A stretch of 64,000 nucleotides of DNA from Geodermatophilus sp. YIM 151500 (lineage in GTDB: Bacteria > Actinomycetota > Actinomycetes > Mycobacteriales > Geodermatophilaceae): NCBI RefSeq assembly GCF_025716945.1, contig NZ_JAOVZT010000009.1, forward strand, positions 74,499-138,498, written 5' to 3'. The notes under the pieces are model-generated. The model did no database searches. It worked only from the letters and a program-made list of their open reading frames with translations, and was not told the DNA's origin. Shown here piece by piece: positions 4,897 to 15,043 of the stretch; position 1 is the first letter of the stretch; the number at the start of each line of letters is the position of its first letter. The translations under genes were made by a program, and so were the position numbers.

Positions 4897-6510
4897 ATGT
4901 CCACCACGGACCGCCCGGCCAGCCCCGGCACGCGCACCGACGTCGACGCCGCCTTCCGCGGACACGCGACCTACCGCAGCCTCGGCGAGCAGCAGCTCAG
5001 CGAGGCCGAGGAGCGGTTCGAGAAGGGACGCCGCACCGTCGGGCTGTTCCTCGCGCCGGTGGTCACGATCGTGTTCGCGCTGCTGCCGCTCGACCTGCCG
5101 CGCGAGCAGCACCTGCTCGCCGCGGTGCTGCTCGGCGTCATCGTGCTGTGGATCACCGAGCCGGTGCCCATCCCGATCGGTGGCCTGATCGGGGTCGGTG
5201 TGATCGCCCTCCTCGGGGTCGTGTCGGGCGACGACGCGGTGGCCCCGCTCGGGTCGACGACGGTGTTCACCTTCATCGGCGCCTTCATCCTGGCCCAGGC
5301 GATGCTCAAGCACGGTGTGGCCCGGCGGTTCGCCATGACGATCCTGTCCTTGCGCTGGGTCGGCGGCTCCACCGCACGGCTGATCATCGCCTTCGGGTTG
5401 ATCACCGCGCTGCTGTCGGCGTTCGTGTCCAACACGGCCACGGTCGCGATGCTGCTGCCCACCGCGATCGGCATCCTGTCGGTCATCGCCAAGCTGCTGC
5501 AGCAGAAGGAGCTGGTGGCGCCGGACTTCGACCCGCTGCGGTTGCGGGTCGGCGTCGCCCTGATGCTGATGCTGGCCTACGGCGCGAGCGTCGGTGGGCT
5601 GATCACCCCCGTCGGCAGCCCGCCCAACCTGATCGGTCGCGGGCTGATCGAGGAGGCGACGGGCGAGCGGATCGGCTTCCTGTCCTGGATGCTCATGGCG
5701 CTGCCCATCTGCGCCTTGATGTTCGTGGCGCTGGCCGCGGTCCTGCTGCTGCTCAACCGGCCGGAGATCAAGCGGATCGAGGGCGTGCACGAGTACGTGC
5801 AGCAGGAGCGCGAGGCGCTCGGCCCGATGTCGCGGGCGGAGAAGAACACGCTCATCGCCTTCGGCGTCACCGTGGCCTTCTGGATCTTCCCCGGCGTCAT
5901 CGCGCTCACCGCGGGCACCGACTCCGACCTCTACACCGAGGTGGGCAACCGGCTCGACGAGGGCATCGTGGCCGTCCTCGGCGCCTCGCTGCTGTTCCTG
6001 CTGCCCACCGACTGGAAGGCCCGCGACTTCACGCTCAACTGGAGCGACGCGGCGAAGATCGACTGGGGCACCATCCTGCTGTTCGGCACCGGGATCATCT
6101 TCGGCTCGCTGCTGGCCTCCACCGGTCTGGCCGAGACGATCGGCAACAGCTCGGCCGATGCGCTCGGCCTGACCAACGTCTTCCTGATCACCATCTTCGC
6201 GGTGATCCTGGCGATCATCATCTCGGAGACGACGAGCAACACGGCCTCGGCGGCGGTCGTCGTCCCCATCATCATCCCGGTGGCGGTGGCCGCAGGGGTC
6301 AACCCGTTCGTCCCGGCGCTGGCGGCCACGTTCGCCGCGTCGTTCGGGTTCATGCTGCCGGTGTCGACGCCGCAGAACGCGATCGTCTACGGCTCGGGCG
6401 TCGTGCCGATCACGAAGATGATCCGGTCGGGCTTCTCGTTCGACGTGCTCGGGGCGATGCTCATCGTGCTTCTGCTGCCGATCATGATCGGCCTCGTCCT
6501 CGACGTCTGA
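4897..6510 (+). CDS. SLC13/DASS-family sodium:dicarboxylate-type permease
   Basis: A 537-residue inner-membrane transporter with about 11-13 hydrophobic segments. The two DASS signature motifs are present: FVSNTATVAMLLPTAIGI near residue 178 and SETTSNTASAAVVVPIII near residue 445; their Ser-Asn-Thr triplets bind Na+ and the substrate carboxylate in VcINDY. The soluble N-terminus of about 45 residues is predicted cytoplasmic. Likely substrates are C4-dicarboxylates, citrate or sulfate; sequence alone does not decide. The ATG is preceded by AAGGGAG with good spacing. The convergent downstream gene is separated by a strong shared terminator. Confidence 0.88.
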   Translation: MSTTDRPASPGTRTDVDAAFRGHATYRSLGEQQLSEAEERFEKGRRTVGLFLAPVVTIVFALLPLDLPREQHLLAAVLLGVIVLWITEPVPIPIGGLIGVGVIALLGVVSGDDAVAPLGSTTVFTFIGAFILAQAMLKHGVARRFAMTILSLRWVGGSTARLIIAFGLITALLSAFVSNTATVAMLLPTAIGILSVIAKLLQQKELVAPDFDPLRLRVGVALMLMLAYGASVGGLITPVGSPPNLIGRGLIEEATGERIGFLSWMLMALPICALMFVALAAVLLLLNRPEIKRIEGVHEYVQQEREALGPMSRAEKNTLIAFGVTVAFWIFPGVIALTAGTDSDLYTEVGNRLDEGIVAVLGASLLFLLPTDWKARDFTLNWSDAAKIDWGTILLFGTGIIFGSLLASTGLAETIGNSSADALGLTNVFLITIFAVILAIIISETTSNTASAAVVVPIIIPVAVAAGVNPFVPALAATFAASFGFMLPVSTPQNAIVYGSGVVPITKMIRSGFSFDVLGAMLIVLLLPIMIGLVLDV

Positions 6511-6524
6511 CCCGCTCCGCCGAA

Positions 6525-6585
6525 GGCATAGGAAGCTTTGCCCCCGGTATCGATCGCCGACACCGGGGGCAAAGCTTCCTATGCC
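6525..6585. terminator. Bidirectional hairpin terminator between convergent genes
   Basis: Perfect 24-bp inverted arms, 6525-6548 and 6562-6585, separated by a 13-nt loop. The arm reads GGCATAGGAAGC then TTTGCCCCCGGT. It sits 15 nt after the permease stop and 54 nt after the stop of the convergent flavoprotein, so it could end both transcripts. There is no U-tract, as usual in actinobacteria. Arms this long and exact can also be a dispersed repeat. Confidence 0.85.
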
Positions 6586-6639
6586 CTGGCGCGGTGGCGG
6601 GGTGGAGGCGGGGCGGATCCGGGGCACGGGCGCTGACCC

Positions 6640-7782
6640 TCAGCGGCGGGCCTCCGCGAGCGCGGCCTCGCCGACCTCGACCAGGGTGGCCTCCGGAGGC
6701 GTCGGGTGGAACGGGCCGCCGCGCACGTCGCGGTAGGCCCGCTCGAGCGGGGACCGCCGGTAGAACGCCGCACCACCGGCCACCTGCAGCGCCAGATCGG
6801 TCACCGCGACCGCTTCCAGGACGGCGTGCCGCTTCGCGACCAGCACGGTCCGCAGCGCGACGGGCCCGGCCTCGGGGTACTCGCCGACCTCCTCCAGGGC
6901 GCCGAGGACGCCCCACCGCGCGACCCGGAGCCGGGACTGCATCTCGCCCAGCTGGCGGGCCGCTCCGGCGGCGGGGGCTGTCTTGCTTGCGGTGAGACGG
7001 AGCGCCTCGTCGTAGGCGCCCTGGGCCACGCCGAGGTAGACGCCGGCGATCACCGGGGCGAAGTGCAGCACGGCCACCAGCAGCGGGCCGGTGAGCTCCC
7101 CGTAGGGACGGCGGCCGACCACCCGCTCCGCGGGGACGAAGACGTCGTCGAGGACGACGTCCTGGCTGGCGGTCCCGCGCATGCCGAGGGTGTCCCAGGT
7201 GTCGACGAGCGAGACGCCGGGACTGCTGAACGGGACGCCCGCGTGCAGCACCTCGGCGCCGGGACCGGGCTCGCCCAGCACGGCCGACGTGGCCAGGACC
7301 GTCGCCCCGGGCGCCTGGGAGCAGAAGGACTTGCGGCCGGTGAAGAGGTAACCGCCGTCCACCTCGACGGCGGTGGTGGTGGGGCTGACCCAGTCGGAGC
7401 CGCCGCTGGTGGCGAGGACGATGCCCTCCCCGGCGATGCGGCGCAGCGTCGCGCCGGCGTCCGGGGCGCCGCGGTGGTGGCGGTAGCGGTGCACCAGCGT
7501 GAGGTAGTGGTGCATGGCGGAGGCGAGGGACGCCGAACCGGACCAGCGGGCCAGCTCGTGCTGGGCGAGGACGACCTGGCGCCAGGAGGCGCCGAGGCCG
7601 CCGAGGTCCGCCGGTACGGCGAGACCGAGGTAGCCGGTCTCGCGCATGGCGTCGTAGGCCTCCGCGACGAACGTCGCGTCGCGGTCGTGCTCGGGCTCGT
7701 GCTCCGCCGCTCGGCGACCGATGTCCGCGGCCAGGGCGACGAACTGCTCGTCGGTGGACAGGGGCTGCAGGGTGGTGGTCAT
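6640..7782 (-). CDS. Acyl-CoA dehydrogenase-family flavoprotein
   Basis: A 380-residue FAD enzyme. The N-terminal helical domain contains YLGLAVPADLGGLGASW, the middle beta-domain has TSGGSDWVSP followed by GGYLFTGRKSFCSQAPGA, and the C-terminal helical bundle covers roughly residues 230-380. The catalytic Glu of true acyl-CoA dehydrogenases cannot be placed with confidence, so a flavin-dependent monooxygenase or desulfurisation-type role (DszC-like) is also possible. It is divergent from an HxlR regulator with about 70 nt between the two starts, which suggests local control by that regulator. Confidence 0.8.
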   Translation of the reverse strand: MTTTLQPLSTDEQFVALAADIGRRAAEHEPEHDRDATFVAEAYDAMRETGYLGLAVPADLGGLGASWRQVVLAQHELARWSGSASLASAMHHYLTLVHRYRHHRGAPDAGATLRRIAGEGIVLATSGGSDWVSPTTTAVEVDGGYLFTGRKSFCSQAPGATVLATSAVLGEPGPGAEVLHAGVPFSSPGVSLVDTWDTLGMRGTASQDVVLDDVFVPAERVVGRRPYGELTGPLLVAVLHFAPVIAGVYLGVAQGAYDEALRLTASKTAPAAGAARQLGEMQSRLRVARWGVLGALEEVGEYPEAGPVALRTVLVAKRHAVLEAVAVTDLALQVAGGAAFYRRSPLERAYRDVRGGPFHPTPPEATLVEVGEAALAEARR

Positions 7783-8531: not shown

Positions 8532-8710
8532 CCGACACCGGTTCACGAGCGGAACCGCTCACCCCGCCCGGTCCCGGGTTCACCCGTCCGGGGCTGGACG
8601 GGCGTGTCACCATGGACGACGGCCCGACGGGCGCCGCGAACGGCCGGCGCCGTCTGCGAGCGAGCGAGGGGAGCGGACGTGCGCACCGAACCTCCGCATC
8701 CCAGTAGCGA

Positions 8711-8773
8711 GGTCCTCCCCGCCTGAGCGTCCCGCCGACCGGTTCGGCAGGGGAGGACCGCCGCCCGCGCTCA
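8711..8773 (+). promoter_or_regulatory. Structured 5' region ahead of corA: long hairpin with possible pseudoknot
   Basis: GGTCCTCCCC at 8711-8720 pairs perfectly with GGGGAGGACC at 8750-8759. TGAGCG inside the loop (8724-8729) is complementary to CGCTCA just 3' of the hairpin (8768-8773), which would make an H-type pseudoknot. It sits 30 nt before the CorA start. A Mg2+-responsive leader is an attractive idea, but I see no M-box consensus. The rest of the 271-nt gap (8532-8802) shows nothing recognisable. Confidence 0.4.
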
Positions 8774-8802
8774 CCCCTCGCCGTCCGTCCCGGGAGTCCG
8801 CC

Positions 8803-10408: not shown

Positions 10409-10782
10409 GGGGGTGATTGGTCTCGACTTCGGTCGGGTGCCCAGGGGAAGCGAGCCGAGGAAGCCGACGATGAGCTCGTTAACCACGCGTCGGAACCAAC
10501 ACAAGCGCCGACTCCAGTCAGCGCGAGTTCGCCCTCGCTGCCTGATAGCAGCGTAGGCAACTCTGTCAGCCCGGGTTCGTCATCGGCCCGGATCCTGGCA
10601 TCAGCTAGATGACTCACCGCGCGTGCCGGTCGCGGGCGCGCGCGGGACATCGAACAGCGACTGGGCCCGTCACACCGACTCGTCCGTGTGATCGGTGGGG
10701 CCGAGCAGAGACGCAGCGGACTGCGCTCGGAGAAGCCCTGGACATGCGTCGAAGGACGCGGGTTCGATTCCCGCCACCTCCA
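10409..10782 (+). ncRNA. ssrA: tmRNA (transfer-messenger RNA)
   Basis: The 374-nt gene begins GGGGGTGATTGGTCTCGACT, the canonical tmRNA 5' end, and finishes with a T-arm GGTTCGATTCCCGCC and CACCTCC, which pairs with GGGGGTG to form the acceptor stem (one G-U). The discriminator is A and is followed by CAG, so the CCA tail is not encoded and must be added. The tag reading frame starts at GCC 10507 and runs to TGA 10543-10545, followed at once by TAG. It encodes ADSSQREFALAA, the actinobacterial tag consensus. The RNA rescues stalled ribosomes together with SmpB, whose gene end lies at the left edge of the window. Confidence 0.97.
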
Positions 10783-10833
10783 CAGACAGACAGAGGTGTC
10801 CTGGCGAACAGCCGGCACCTCGGTTGGCGACAT

Positions 10834-11031: not shown

Positions 11032-11113
11032 GCGTGGTCCGATCCGACCACGCCGCGGCCGCTGGTGGTTGGTCGCTTCGGGCGATGAGGTGCCGCGCCC
11101 GGATTCCTAGCGT
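11032..11113 (+). promoter_or_regulatory. Palindromic operator plus TAGCGT promoter (copy 1)
   Basis: GCGTGGTC-N6-GACCACGC at 11032-11053 is a perfect 8-bp inverted repeat. GGTTGGTCG follows at 11067 and the -10 box TAGCGT is at 11108-11113, exactly 55 bp from the operator end. The same layout recurs at 13983-14064, where the 22-bp operator core is identical at 19 of 22 positions. The LuxR-type regulator encoded between the two copies is the obvious candidate binder. Confidence 0.7.
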
Positions 11114-11155
11114 CCAGGGCGTCAGGAACAACGCCCGGACCCCAGGAGGCGACCG

Positions 11156-11437
11156 ATGTCCGTCGTCATGATGATCGACAACCCTCACGGCTCGCAGGAG
11201 ATCTACGAGCGGGTCGCGGCCGGCCGGCGCCTGCCGATCGGCGGCAGCGTGCACCTGGCCGGGCCGGGCCCGAACGGCGGCTGGCGCGTGATCGACGTGT
11301 TCGACAGCGAGGAGGAGGGACGCCGGTTCGTCCGCGACGAGCTGGCCCCCGCGCTGCGCGCCGCCGGGGCGCAGGGCCCGCCGCCGCCCGTGGAGTTCTG
11401 GCCGGTGTACCGCTGCGTGACGGGGGTGCCGGCATGA
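11156..11437 (+). CDS. Small dimeric alpha/beta-barrel-like protein (ABM-like)
   Basis: A 93-residue cytoplasmic protein with SVVMMIDNPHGSQEIYERV at the N-terminus and WRVIDVFDSEEEGRRFVRDE in the middle. This resembles the ferredoxin-like barrel of antibiotic-biosynthesis monooxygenase (ABM) or related small dimeric proteins; similarity to the N-terminal domain encoded at 31895 supports this. The catalytic function is unknown. An AGGAGG site lies 6 nt before the ATG. It is the first gene of a two-gene operon driven by the palindrome promoter and overlaps the next gene by 4 nt (ATGA), so translation is probably coupled. Confidence 0.7.
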   Translation: MSVVMMIDNPHGSQEIYERVAAGRRLPIGGSVHLAGPGPNGGWRVIDVFDSEEEGRRFVRDELAPALRAAGAQGPPPPVEFWPVYRCVTGVPA

Positions 11438-12174
11438 CCGCGACCACGTCCCCGGGACGGCCGGGCCCCACCGCGCGGCCGTCGCCGTCGATGCGCTCGG
11501 CGGGGCATGCCCGGGGCCTCGGGCCGGGCTCGTGGAGCCGTCCGCGGCGGCTGCTGGGTGCGGCGACCGTCGCCGTGGGACCGCTCGTGCTGCTCGGCGG
11601 CATCCTCTACCACCCGTTCATCGCCGACCTGCGGCACAAGCACGACGTGGCGGTCGCGCTGGAGGCGTCCACGATCCGGTGGTCGGTCGCCCACCTCGTC
11701 GCGGCCGTCGGCTCGGCGCTGGTCGCGCTCGCGTTCCTCGCGGTCACGGCGGCGCTGCGTCAGCGGGGCGAGTGGCGGTGGAGCGGGCGCGTGGTGCCGT
11801 TCGTCGTCGTCGGCAGCACGCTGTTCGCGCTGCTGCCCGCGATGGAGATCGCGGTGCTGGCGGCCTCGTTGGCCGGCGCCGACGCCGAGGCGGTGCTGAT
11901 CGAGCTCGACCCCTGGTTCCGGCCGGTGTTGCTCGGTTCGGCGGCGGTGTTCGCCGTCGGGATGGCCTGCGCGGCACGGGCCGTCGTGCGCGCCAGGGTG
12001 CTCGGGCGGGCGATGACCGCGCTCGTCGTCGGCGCGCTGGCGGTGACCGCGGTAGCGCGCTTCCTCCCGTTCGGCGCGGCGCTGACCGTGGGCGCGGCCG
12101 CGCTGGTGGTCGGCCTGCTGCCGCTGGTGGGCACCGTGGCGGCCCGACCGCCGGTCCCGGCCGGGCTGGGCTGA
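11434..12174 (+). CDS. Hypothetical six-helix membrane protein
   Basis: A 246-residue integral membrane protein. After a basic, Pro/Ser-rich cytoplasmic leader of about 35 residues, hydrophobic segments follow near residues 42-62, 85-105, 120-140, 155-175, 185-205 and 207-228. Examples are LVALAFLAVTAALRQR and VVPFVVVGSTLFALLP. No catalytic or transport motif is visible and I cannot assign a family; DUF4386/DUF998-like small membrane proteins are a loose analogy. It is translated with an ATGA overlap from the preceding small barrel protein and is closed off by a strong hairpin, so the two form one operon next to the LuxR regulator. Confidence 0.7.
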   Translation: MTATTSPGRPGPTARPSPSMRSAGHARGLGPGSWSRPRRLLGAATVAVGPLVLLGGILYHPFIADLRHKHDVAVALEASTIRWSVAHLVAAVGSALVALAFLAVTAALRQRGEWRWSGRVVPFVVVGSTLFALLPAMEIAVLAASLAGADAEAVLIELDPWFRPVLLGSAAVFAVGMACAARAVVRARVLGRAMTALVVGALAVTAVARFLPFGAALTVGAAALVVGLLPLVGTVAARPPVPAGLG

Positions 12175-12186
12175 CGTCGGGACTCC

Positions 12187-12231
12187 GGGCCGGGCTCCGG
12201 CGGATCCGCACGATCCGCCGGAGCCCGGCCC
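12187..12231 (+). terminator. Perfect 20-bp-stem terminator
   Basis: Arms 12187-12206 and 12212-12231 (GGGCCGGGCTCCGGCGGATC and its complement) enclose a 5-nt CGCAC loop. It separates the two-gene operon from the regulator gene and leaves 52 nt for a promoter of the latter. Confidence 0.9.
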
Positions 12232-12283
12232 GCACCCCTGGACCGGCCGGGCCGGTCGGCGGTTCCATGGGGTGGGGAGACGG

Positions 12284-13924
12284 ATGACGCTCGCGGAGAA
12301 GCTCACGACGGCGCGGGAGGCGGTGGCCGCCCGGGAGTGGGCGCGGGCCTACGACGCGCTGCGCGCCGCCGACCGGGACGGCGAGCTGGGGGCCGACGAC
12401 CTGGAGCGGCTGGCTCTGGCGGCCTACCTGAGCGGGCACGACGAGGCCCACGAGGACGCGATGGAGCGCCTCGTGCACCGGCTGGACGAGGCGGGCGAGG
12501 CCCGCCGCGCGGCGCGGACCGCGTTCTGGCTGGCCCTCGCCCTGGTCCTGCGCGGCGAGCCGGCCCGCGGCGGCGGCTGGCTGGCCCGCGCCGAGCGCAC
12601 CCTGGCCGAGGCGGGGAACCCGCCGTGCCCAGAGCAGGGCCTGCTGATGGCGGCGATGGCCCTGCACCACCTGGGCGCCGGGGAGAGCGAGGCCGCGGCG
12701 GAGGTGTTCGACCAGGTCATCGCCATCGGCCGGCGCTTCCACGACCCCGACGTCACCGCCTTCGGCGTCTGCGGCTGCGGGCAGGCCATGATCGCGGGGG
12801 GCCGGCGCGACACCGGGCTGCGCCTCCTCGACGAGGCGATGGTCGCCGTGACGGCGGACGACGTCTCGCCGGTCACCGTCGGCATCGTGTACTGCGCGGT
12901 GGTCGTGACCTGCCACCAGGCCCTCGACCTGCACCGGGCGCGCGAGTGGACGGGCGTGCTCAGCCGGTGGTGCGCCGCCCAGCCCGACCTCGTGCCCTAC
13001 CGGGGACAGTGCCTCGTGCACCGCGCGCAGGTGCTCGCGTTGGAGGGCCGCTGGCCGGAGGCCATGGAGGAGGTGGCCCGGGCGCGGGAGCGGCTGGCCG
13101 ATCCGCCCGGCCAGCCGGCGGTCGGGATGGCCTGGTACGAGACCGGCGAGCTGCTCCGGCGGCTGGGCCGGCACGCCGACGCCGAGGACTGCTACCGGCG
13201 GGCGAGCCAGCACGGCCACTCGCCGCAGCCCGGCATGCTCCTGCTGCGGCTGGCCCAGGGGCGCGGCGCGGAGGCCCGCTCCGCGGTCGACGCCGCGCTG
13301 GCGACCGCGACGTCCGCGGCCGACCGCTGGCCGTTGCTCGCCGCGGCGATCGAGGTCTGCTGCGCCGCCGGCGACCCGGCGGCTGCCCGCGCGGCCGCCG
13401 ACGAGCTGGACGCGCTCGCCCGGGAGCAGCCCGGCGAGTGGCCGCGGGCGATCGCCACGACCGCGGTGGGCACCGTGCTGCTGGCGGAGGGGGCCACCCG
13501 GGAGGCAGGGGCGGTGCTCGCCCGCGCCCGGGACGCCTGGCGCGAGCTGCGCGTGCCCTACGAGGCGGCCCGGGTGCGGATCCTGCTGGGCGAGATGTGC
13601 TCGGCCCTCGGCGACGCCGACGGGGCGCTGCTGGAGTGGGACGCCGCCCGCTACACCTTCGAGGAGCTCGGCGCGGTCGACGACCTGGCCCGGGTCGCCG
13701 CGCGGCTGGCGCCGGAGGCACCCGAGCGCCCCAGCGGGCTGACCCACCGGGAGCTGGAGGTGCTCCGGCTGGTGGCGCAGGGGCAGACGAACCGCGAGAT
13801 CGCCGACGCCCTGGTGCTCAGCGAGCACACGGTCCGGCGGCACCTGCAGAACGTCTTCGCCCGGCTCGGGGTCTCCTCCCGCGCGGCCGCGGTCGCCTTC
13901 GCCGTGCAGCACGACCTCGTCTGA
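12284..13924 (+). CDS. LuxR-family transcriptional regulator with TPR-like sensor region
   Basis: A 546-residue protein. Residues about 1-470 are alpha-helical repeats of TPR type, for example TLAEAGNPPCPEQGLLMAAM and RRASQHGHSPQPGMLLLRLA. The last 60 residues form a LuxR/GerE helix-turn-helix with LTHRELEVLRLVAQGQTNRE and LSEHTVRRHLQNVFARLG. Unlike the three larger LuxR proteins in the window it lacks an N-terminal P-loop ATPase, so it resembles a MalT-type protein stripped of its NTPase. The ATG at 12284 has GGGGAGA upstream; the GTG at 12272 does not. It sits between two operons bearing the same palindrome and probably controls both. Confidence 0.85.
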   Translation: MTLAEKLTTAREAVAAREWARAYDALRAADRDGELGADDLERLALAAYLSGHDEAHEDAMERLVHRLDEAGEARRAARTAFWLALALVLRGEPARGGGWLARAERTLAEAGNPPCPEQGLLMAAMALHHLGAGESEAAAEVFDQVIAIGRRFHDPDVTAFGVCGCGQAMIAGGRRDTGLRLLDEAMVAVTADDVSPVTVGIVYCAVVVTCHQALDLHRAREWTGVLSRWCAAQPDLVPYRGQCLVHRAQVLALEGRWPEAMEEVARARERLADPPGQPAVGMAWYETGELLRRLGRHADAEDCYRRASQHGHSPQPGMLLLRLAQGRGAEARSAVDAALATATSAADRWPLLAAAIEVCCAAGDPAAARAAADELDALAREQPGEWPRAIATTAVGTVLLAEGATREAGAVLARARDAWRELRVPYEAARVRILLGEMCSALGDADGALLEWDAARYTFEELGAVDDLARVAARLAPEAPERPSGLTHRELEVLRLVAQGQTNREIADALVLSEHTVRRHLQNVFARLGVSSRAAAVAFAVQHDLV

Positions 13925-13980
13925 CCGACGCCCTTCCCGCGCGGCACGGGTCCGCCGCGCCCCCGCGCGGGTCCGGCGCG

Positions 13981-14064
13981 GGGCGTGGCCCGTTCGGACC
14001 ACGCCCGGGCCGGCACGGTTGGTCGTCCTGGTCGATGCCGGCACCGGGTCGCGCTCCCTAGCGT
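13981..14064 (+). promoter_or_regulatory. Palindromic operator plus TAGCGT promoter (copy 2)
   Basis: GGGCGTGG-N10-CCACGCCC at 13981-14006, followed by GGTTGGTCG at 14017 and TAGCGT at 14059-14064. The 22-bp core at 13983-14004 matches copy 1 at 19 of 22 positions, and the distance from core to -10 box is 55 bp in both. The operator lies 56 nt after the stop of the LuxR-type regulator gene. Confidence 0.7.
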
Positions 14065-14107: not shown

Positions 14108-15043
14108 ATGCGCGCCACCGACACGACCGGCCGGACGGGCCCCGGCGGCGACGCCGCGGGAGCGGGCACGATCGCCGGCATCCGCGCGGACACGATCCGC
14201 GACCTGCCGCTGACCGAGCGGCGGCTCGAGGCCGCCGGCATCCCGACCGCCGTCCTGGAGGGCGGCGATGGCCCGCCGGTCGTGCTGCTGCACGGCCCCG
14301 GCGAGTTCGCCGTTCTGTGGGGCCGCGTCGTCCCCCCGCTCACCGCGACCCACCGGGTCGTGGTGCCCGACCTGCCCGGCCACGGCGCCTCCGGGCTGCC
14401 CGGCGACGGGCCGCTGGACGCCGAGCGCTTCCTGTCCTGGCTGCGGCACCTGATCGGGCAGACCTGCCCGGCGCCGCCCGCGCTCGTCGGCCACCTGGCC
14501 GGCGGCGCCCTCGCGCTGCGCCACGCGATCGACGGCGGACCGGTGGAGCGCGTGGTCCTGGTCGACTCGACCGGGCTGGCCATGAGCCGGCCGGCGGTGT
14601 CGTTCGCCGCGGCGCTCGCCGGCTACCTCGCCCACCCGACGGTGCGCAGCCTGGACCGCTTCGTCGGCCGGTGCATGTACGACTTCGACGGCATGCGGCG
14701 CGAGCTGGGGCCGCGCTGGGACCCGTTCGCCGACTACGCGCTCGCGGGCGTGCGGCAGCGCGGCGCCCGCTCGGCGGTGCTGGCCTTCGCGACCGCCTTC
14801 GGCATGTTCCCGCTCCGCCGTCGCGACCTGGCCCGGATCCCGGTCCCGGTGTCGATGATCTGGGGACGCCACGACCTGCAGAACCGGCTGCGGATCGCCG
14901 AGGCGGCGGCCACGCGGTTCGGCTGGCCGCTCGAGGTCGTCGAGGACGTGCGCGACGACCCCTGCTGGGAGCGGCCCGACGCCGCCGTCCCGGCCCTGCG
15001 GGCCGCCCTGGCCCGGCCGCTGCGCCGGCACGTGCCGGCCTGA
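14108..15043 (+). CDS. Alpha/beta-hydrolase-fold protein lacking the catalytic serine and histidine
   Basis: A 311-residue protein with a clear alpha/beta-hydrolase core: PPVVLLHGPGEFAVLWGRVV, VVVPDLPGHGASGLPG and a late acid in MIWGRHD. At the nucleophile elbow, however, the sequence is LVGHLAGGALALR, with Leu where GHSxGG has Ser. The region that should supply histidine reads EDVRDDPCWERPDA with no His. The fold is kept but the hydrolytic triad is not, suggesting a ligand-binding or regulatory role. GGAGGAGG precedes the ATG. It is driven by operator copy 2 and follows the LuxR-type regulator. A short ORF begins at its stop codon. Confidence 0.85.
   Translation: MRATDTTGRTGPGGDAAGAGTIAGIRADTIRDLPLTERRLEAAGIPTAVLEGGDGPPVVLLHGPGEFAVLWGRVVPPLTATHRVVVPDLPGHGASGLPGDGPLDAERFLSWLRHLIGQTCPAPPALVGHLAGGALALRHAIDGGPVERVVLVDSTGLAMSRPAVSFAAALAGYLAHPTVRSLDRFVGRCMYDFDGMRRELGPRWDPFADYALAGVRQRGARSAVLAFATAFGMFPLRRRDLARIPVPVSMIWGRHDLQNRLRIAEAAATRFGWPLEVVEDVRDDPCWERPDAAVPALRAALARPLRRHVPA

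Follow-up and report, generated by a model that had tools for sequence, protein, structure and literature searches.

Why do two operons on either side of a regulatory gene carry nearly the same promoter, and is it the regulator between them that reads it? The question is raised by a locus of Geodermatophilus sp. YIM 151500 (assembly GCF_025716945.1, contig NZ_JAOVZT010000009.1) within a stretch of 64,000 nucleotides, positions 74,499 to 138,498 of the forward strand, which we call the window and whose numbering is used throughout. Here the gene for a LuxR-type regulator (12284..13924, + strand), a superhelix of tetratricopeptide repeats (TPR) followed by a C-terminal GerE helix-turn-helix (HTH), lies between operon A, which encodes a small protein and a membrane protein, and a gene for an alpha/beta-hydrolase-fold protein. 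A first-pass annotation, made from the letters alone, had proposed that the regulator governs both flanking operons. Sequence comparison supports this proposal: we consider control of both promoters by the regulator strongly supported, because the promoter element recurs 3' of the regulator genes of relatives, its half-sites covary between its two blocks, and its symmetry follows the regulator's recognition helix.

Two promoters with one geometry

Promoters A and B both lie on the + strand and share one order of elements: a palindrome, TTGGTCG-N7-CGATG, and then TAGCGT. In promoter A the palindrome GCGTGGTCCGATCCGACCACGC (block 1, 11032..11053, with its core TGG-N10-CCA at 11035-11050) is followed by block 2, TTGGTCGCTTCGGGCGATG (11069..11087), which has the form TGG-N10-CGATG, overlaps the -35 position and scores 16.8 bits against the position weight matrix described below. 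The -10 box TAGCGT (11108..11113) comes 25 nt from the C of CGATG. Promoter B repeats this arrangement with the palindrome GCGTGGCCCGTTCGGACCACGC (13983..14004, core TGG-N10-CCA at 13986-14001), block 2 TTGGTCGTCCTGGTCGATG (14019..14037, 17.7 bits) and TAGCGT at 14059..14064, here 26 nt from the C of CGATG. The palindromes stand where the first-pass annotation had placed them and agree at 19 of 22 letters. Its distance of 55 bp from palindrome to TAGCGT is indeed equal in both promoters, with 54 bases between the two elements and 55 if counted end to start. The shared sequence GGTTGGTCG, said to follow the palindrome by 13-14 bp, is common to both and starts at 11067 and 14017, so that the actual gaps are 13 and 12 bases; the base by which the block-to-block distance differs is regained ahead of the -10 box (25 versus 26 nt), leaving the gap from palindrome to TAGCGT the same.

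The likeness is far above background. Across 87-bp stretches A and B are identical at 51 positions, more than in any of 20,000 random window pairs (mean 27.4, maximum 46). The 22-bp consensus, allowing up to three mismatches, matches only two places in the 64-kb window (four strand hits, against a mean of 0.09 in shuffles), and the block 2 matrix reaches 12 bits at three places: promoters A and B, and position 914.

The first-pass annotation had also suggested comparing the locus in related genomes, and blocks and gene order proved to be retained in two other Geodermatophilaceae genomes. Both keep the order of barrel-like protein, membrane protein, regulator and hydrolase, with regulators 93% (G014; loci L055/L104) and 74% (G033; L056) identical to the window protein. 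In both, promoters A and B retain the palindrome core, TTGGTCG-N7-CGATG and TAGCGT; the palindrome of A is kept in L055 and L056, and that of B likewise except for its outer letters. L055 is very close to the window, so that its spacers are mostly retained as well, whereas the spacers of L056 have drifted around intact blocks, which makes L056 the informative comparison.

A putative operator that accompanies a regulator family

We compared the TPR part with one genome per species (84,980 species), which gave 182 places with relatives, and used the best 80. The taxa named among these 80 include Actinobacteria, Chloroflexi, Gemmatimonadetes, Rhizobiales, other Proteobacteria and Fodinibius, among more; within the phylum, 50 of 296 sampled genomes hold a family member (E <= 1e-70). 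Just 3' of the relatives' regulator genes we found a common two-block element with the end CCGATGCG. Seventy-seven of the 80 loci were usable for training (regulator C-terminus plus at least 100 nt of flank), and the block 2 matrix was built from 60 of their sites. At 10 bits or more, the matrix finds block 2 in 70 of the 77 training 3' flanks and in 11 of 742 random 250-mers. In a held-out set of 30 loci outside training, from which loci near-identical to the 80 had been removed, it finds block 2 in 25 of 30 3' flanks, versus none of 30 on the reverse strand, none of 30 5' flanks and 4 of 264 random 250-mers.

The spacing to the -10 box recurs as well. In 42 of the 70 training flanks and 20 of the 25 held-out flanks, the C of CGATG is followed 25-26 nt on by a TANNNT, and in the held-out set TANNNT is found at no other distance between 10 and 50 nt. 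The 25 and 26 nt of the window promoters are exactly these two family distances. On this comparative basis, each window promoter is one instance of a putative portable operator accompanying a widespread, ATPase-free TPR-LuxR family. In the literature that we searched, as represented by listings and the openings of abstracts, we found no description of the regulator family or of the operator.

Some members of the family depart from the common layout. By eye, the 3' flanks of L144 and L161 have blocks 1 and 2 about 10 bp closer together, one helical turn. A homologue on Sinorhizobium meliloti plasmid pA (L214) has the helix SQRTIDRHVSN, a block 2 of 22.8 bits and a TAGGAT box downstream; another plasmid homologue (L215) shows no element in its flank (0.9 bits by the matrix).

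Symmetry of block 1 and the recognition helix

Within the regulator, SEHTVRRHLQN (13820..13852, + strand) is the segment that, from knowledge of the GerE family, we take to be the recognition helix; it is of the S-x-H-T class, and other relatives carry K or R in place of H. Among loci whose block 2 reaches 10 bits, block 1 is a TGG-N10-CCA palindrome in 14 of 14 H loci (which include near relatives of each other and of the window, such as L104), 3 of 61 K loci and 7 of 17 R loci, compared with 24 of 2140 random 45-mers. Adding 11 loci below 10 bits, in which the first 120 nt of flank were read, gives 17 of 17, 4 of 68 and 7 of 18; 4 of 107 loci were dropped for want of a helix. Block 1 of the K class mostly reads YACACAG-N-RCCCAY (43 of 61, by a loose pattern with flanks cut at the stop codon). 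By eye, in the K-class 3' flanks (L104-L183), it resembles TACACA-N4-TACCCA, a direct repeat whose period is 10 bp, rather than an inverted repeat.

The link between H and a palindromic block 1 rests on at least six changes: in a tree built from the TPR part alone (94 rows), H switches six times or more and palindromy eight times or more, and each H row there is palindromic, except L141, which was not scored there. The blocks are also tied to each other: the letters after TGG in the right half of block 1 agree with those of block 2 above shuffles at three of four positions, with 16, 16, 16 and 9 matches in 24 thinned non-K rows against 10.1, 7.6, 7.4 and 7.1 in shuffles (excluding L104 and nine rows without CCA at the expected place). 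When 16 chosen H-class promoters are aligned, leaving out L060 (TGT in block 2), L104, L150, L178 and L179, the invariant columns are TGG, CCA, TGG, CGA-G and TA---T.

The regulator protein

The description of the regulator as having TPR-like repeats and no ATPase holds, the Pfam scan and the structure model being in agreement. The scan finds GerE (PF00196, 67.1 bits, cut-off 23.5) and TPR_12, and in it the regulator matches no ATPase family at E 0.001, no receiver domain and no autoinducer-binding domain, the place of the last being taken by TPR. The model (mean pLDDT 91.6, from an alignment of 30 sequences) shows helical repeats and then the HTH throughout, with 25 helices in the superhelix. 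By sequence, the matches in the PDB are the HTHs of DevR, NarL and VraR and, outside the HTH, two marginal helical-repeat matches, 9k7u and 9y6s. In the fold comparison, generic TPR proteins match the superhelix, domain III of MalT (1hz4) being one of them at rank 36 (E 1.1e-5).

Extent of the regulon

A genome-wide scan with the palindrome motif, also proposed by the first-pass annotation, was useful in its exact form: with no mismatches the motif occurs in 3 of 112 family genomes, in two copies each and always at this locus. With one mismatch it occurs in 27 of the 112 (24 beyond the exact three), versus 6 for a reversed control. At three mismatches the strand hits in the home genome number 75, with 50 for the reversed control, which is too loose to inform beyond the two true sites. 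A match in C4 near another LuxR gene was set aside, being judged, by coordinates only, to lie inside that gene's reading frame.

A profile of the whole promoter was scanned as well. It was built from the 16 H-class promoters, which include A and B of the window and sequences from G000, G033 and G022, and its E-values were disregarded as looking too good for GC-rich genomes. In the home genome the two window promoters score 56.6 and 54.2 bits, values that owe something to their own part in the profile; the next best place has 23.4. The regulon thus looks compact, as had been claimed: no third place in the home genome scores near A and B, though diverged sites could be missed. Across the family genomes, the profile exceeds 29 bits at this locus in three genomes, at six sites in all, and at four further places, in G022, G014 (contig 34), G020 and G093. 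Three of these four adjoin regulator relatives by coordinates, and in G093 a relative lies in the same locus about 1 kb off.

The 23.4-bit place (L263; C33 of the home genome, ~8680-8795) is a divergent promoter in which TAGCGT follows TGG-N10-CGATG at 26 nt and the half-site letters are different. It is flanked by a small 143-aa gene and by a gene that, read by eye, looks like one for an acyl-CoA dehydrogenase, and beside the promoter lies a LuxR gene (5545-7479) that bears an ATPase, its P-loop read by eye. The promoter grammar may therefore extend to LAL-type regulators. In G075 (contig 112; L240/L264) a palindrome, TGGCCAGAACTGACCA, lies upstream of a BBE-type FAD oxidoreductase gene; there just 15 nt separate TAGCGT from the CGAGG after block 2, a distance less than usual by about one helical turn, and a divergent 1004-aa frame has a putative ATPase-type regulator-like start.

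The distribution of the locus is patchy. It is common to three genera, and the hydrolase is present in 4 of 112 family genomes at E <= 1e-40. Directly upstream of promoter A lies a tmRNA gene (10409-10783, tag ADSSQREFALAA). The 3' ends of tmRNA genes are common insertion sites of mobile DNA, and the position of promoter A behind one may be relevant to this patchiness.

Target genes

Operon A begins with a gene for a 93-aa protein (11156..11437, + strand), possibly an ABM-like barrel, followed by one for a 246-aa membrane protein (11434..12174, + strand); between the operon and the regulator gene lies a perfect inverted repeat (12186..12232; 21 bp, 5-nt loop), likely a terminator. Promoter B precedes the hydrolase-fold gene (14108..15043, + strand). 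The first-pass annotation had spoken of a small barrel protein and a dead hydrolase, and the two halves of this description fared differently. The 93-aa protein has no Pfam hit and no match to the ABM profile, and the barrel has behind it just a sub-threshold match of a relative at L221 (15.1 bits versus a cut-off of 23.1, E 0.026). At L221 a more distant LuxR gene directly precedes relatives of both operon A genes, and TGG-N10-CGATTG with TAGCGT 26 nt on is legible by eye. Apart from L104, seven of the 80 loci (L110, L114, L119, L122, L155, L159 and L168) have a relative of the membrane protein behind the regulator.

The hydrolase half stands. The fold is clear (PF12697, 65.1 bits; the model matches BphD/HsaD), and both the catalytic Ser (GHLAGG) and the catalytic His (RDDP) are gone. 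Both are likewise absent in 23 of 25 hydrolase relatives from the 80 loci, one of which (L119) carries Thr at the place of the nucleophile. The relatives with Ser and His, at L171 and L182, are just 41-42% identical and were omitted from alignment A9. The hydrolase probably has a conserved non-catalytic role, in binding or sensing. More broadly, the first genes behind the element (69 genes by Pfam family, from 70 loci with block 2, one of which had no reading frame) are methyltransferases (20), alpha/beta-hydrolases (20), flavin monooxygenase-like proteins (13) and BBE-type FAD oxidoreductases (6).

A proposed mechanism and its rivals

The element, its geometry, its conservation, its placement beside the regulator gene and its link with the recognition helix can all be read in the sequences themselves. 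We propose that the regulator is a LuxR/GerE activator that binds two same-spaced sites in each promoter, in a class II-like manner, and controls the two operons, a like operator travelling with its family; we hold this to be probable. The ATPase-free TPR superhelix would be the sensor, presumably for a ligand. Block 1 (TGG-N10-CCA) would be a strong dimer site and block 2 (TGG-N10-CGATG) a weaker one with the same half-site spacing (TGG-N10-C-A), bound directly and centred at about -78 and -42 on the assumption of a transcription start some 7 nt downstream of TAGCGT. The right half of block 2 stands in place of a -35 hexamer, so that the bound regulator would contact RNA polymerase in the manner of class II activators, whose sites are centred near -41.5 and overlap the -35 position, and would activate rather than repress. 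In the window the controlled operons would be that of the barrel-like and membrane proteins and that of the dead hydrolase; across phyla the operator would accompany the regulator while its targets vary among methyltransferase, dead hydrolase, FAD oxidoreductase and flavin monooxygenase. More speculatively, the locus might be a self-contained signalling module that crosses phyla, in which one helix position (H versus K) sets promoter symmetry and the dead hydrolase is a small-molecule receptor reporting to the TPR superhelix, an extension to which we give little credence.

Several observations weigh against the proposal. The block 2 pattern was originally read off the training flanks, and its strict word, TGG-N10-CGA[TCA]G[CT], present in 61 of 79 flanks of the source loci, is weak on held-out loci (11 of 30, versus 3 of 30 5' flanks), which is why the weight matrix was used; the matrix alone separates well. 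Block 1 of the K class is not palindromic, and in several K rows the letters differ from block to block. The half-site shuffles ignore relatedness, and the fourth position shows nothing; a phylogenetic pair test of helix and symmetry, with just three supported independent pairs, could not reach significance. The matrix finds no element in the 3' flank of the home genome's own TPR-LuxR paralogue (32% identity), and nothing at 10 bits upstream of the distant relatives of the 93-aa gene (L221, L222 and L223). Cross-talk is possible, since TGG-N10-CGATG and TAGCGT also stand beside the ATPase-bearing LuxR gene at L263. A sigma-70 scan of the promoters found no match; it was likewise empty in shuffles and so says little.

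Could the regulator instead repress from these sites, block 2 closing off the -35 region for as long as no ligand is bound? Block 2 does cover the -35 position, and many dimeric regulators repress in this way. We nevertheless regard repression as unlikely, because sites centred near -42 typically serve activation and, reading by eye, we see no TTGACA-like -35 hexamer between block 2 and the -10 box; the empty sigma-70 scan points the same way, with the limit just given. That another factor reads the element, such as an ATPase-bearing LuxR paralogue or an ECF sigma factor, the neighbouring regulator being incidental, appears less probable still. The L263 promoter would suit such a factor, but in 25 of the 30 held-out loci the element directly follows the 3' end of the TPR-LuxR gene, and its symmetry follows the TPR-LuxR protein's own helix.

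The remaining rivals concern the palindromes and their likeness. Both palindromes lie 3' of genes, that of A behind the tmRNA gene and that of B behind the regulator gene, as terminators or RNA hairpins of those genes would. However, no T-run follows them, most K-class sites are not palindromic, and the conserved unit takes in block 2 and the -10 box as well, all at fixed spacing, so we consider this explanation very improbable. Recent duplication of one promoter, without shared regulation, might account for the 51 identical positions. Yet the core letters of A and B (GATCC versus GTTCG) stay distinct in all three genomes, which indicates that A and B parted before these genomes did while the blocks remained, and we find the duplication account scarcely tenable. 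Activation by the neighbouring regulator is the explanation that we prefer.

Implications and comparison with known systems

If this proposal holds, the operator and the promoter geometry of a widespread regulator family become defined, and the symmetry of the operator can be read from a residue of the helix. Targets would then be predictable from sequence, and the family would offer natural specificity variants for the study of DNA recognition by the GerE HTH. The analysis also flags a conserved family of pseudo-hydrolases with a likely binding or regulatory role.

Among known regulators, MalT and the other LAL proteins resemble the window regulator in their C-terminal GerE HTH and all-helical TPR-like sensor. 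They differ in that the window protein has no ATPase domain and scores 43.1 bits against the MalT family model NF003420, whose cut-off is 537. MalT sites overlap the -35 region; in place of MalT boxes, the window operator has two blocks with a palindrome. NarL, FixJ and DevR share the GerE HTH family, but the window regulator is without their receiver domain. For the dead hydrolase, the meta-cleavage-product hydrolases (BphD, HsaD, CarC and CumD) are among the closest solved relatives by profile and by fold, and differ in that the window protein has the nucleophile Ser and the catalytic His replaced. The plant gibberellin receptor GID1, a non-catalytic alpha/beta-hydrolase fold that serves as a receptor, offers a possible parallel.

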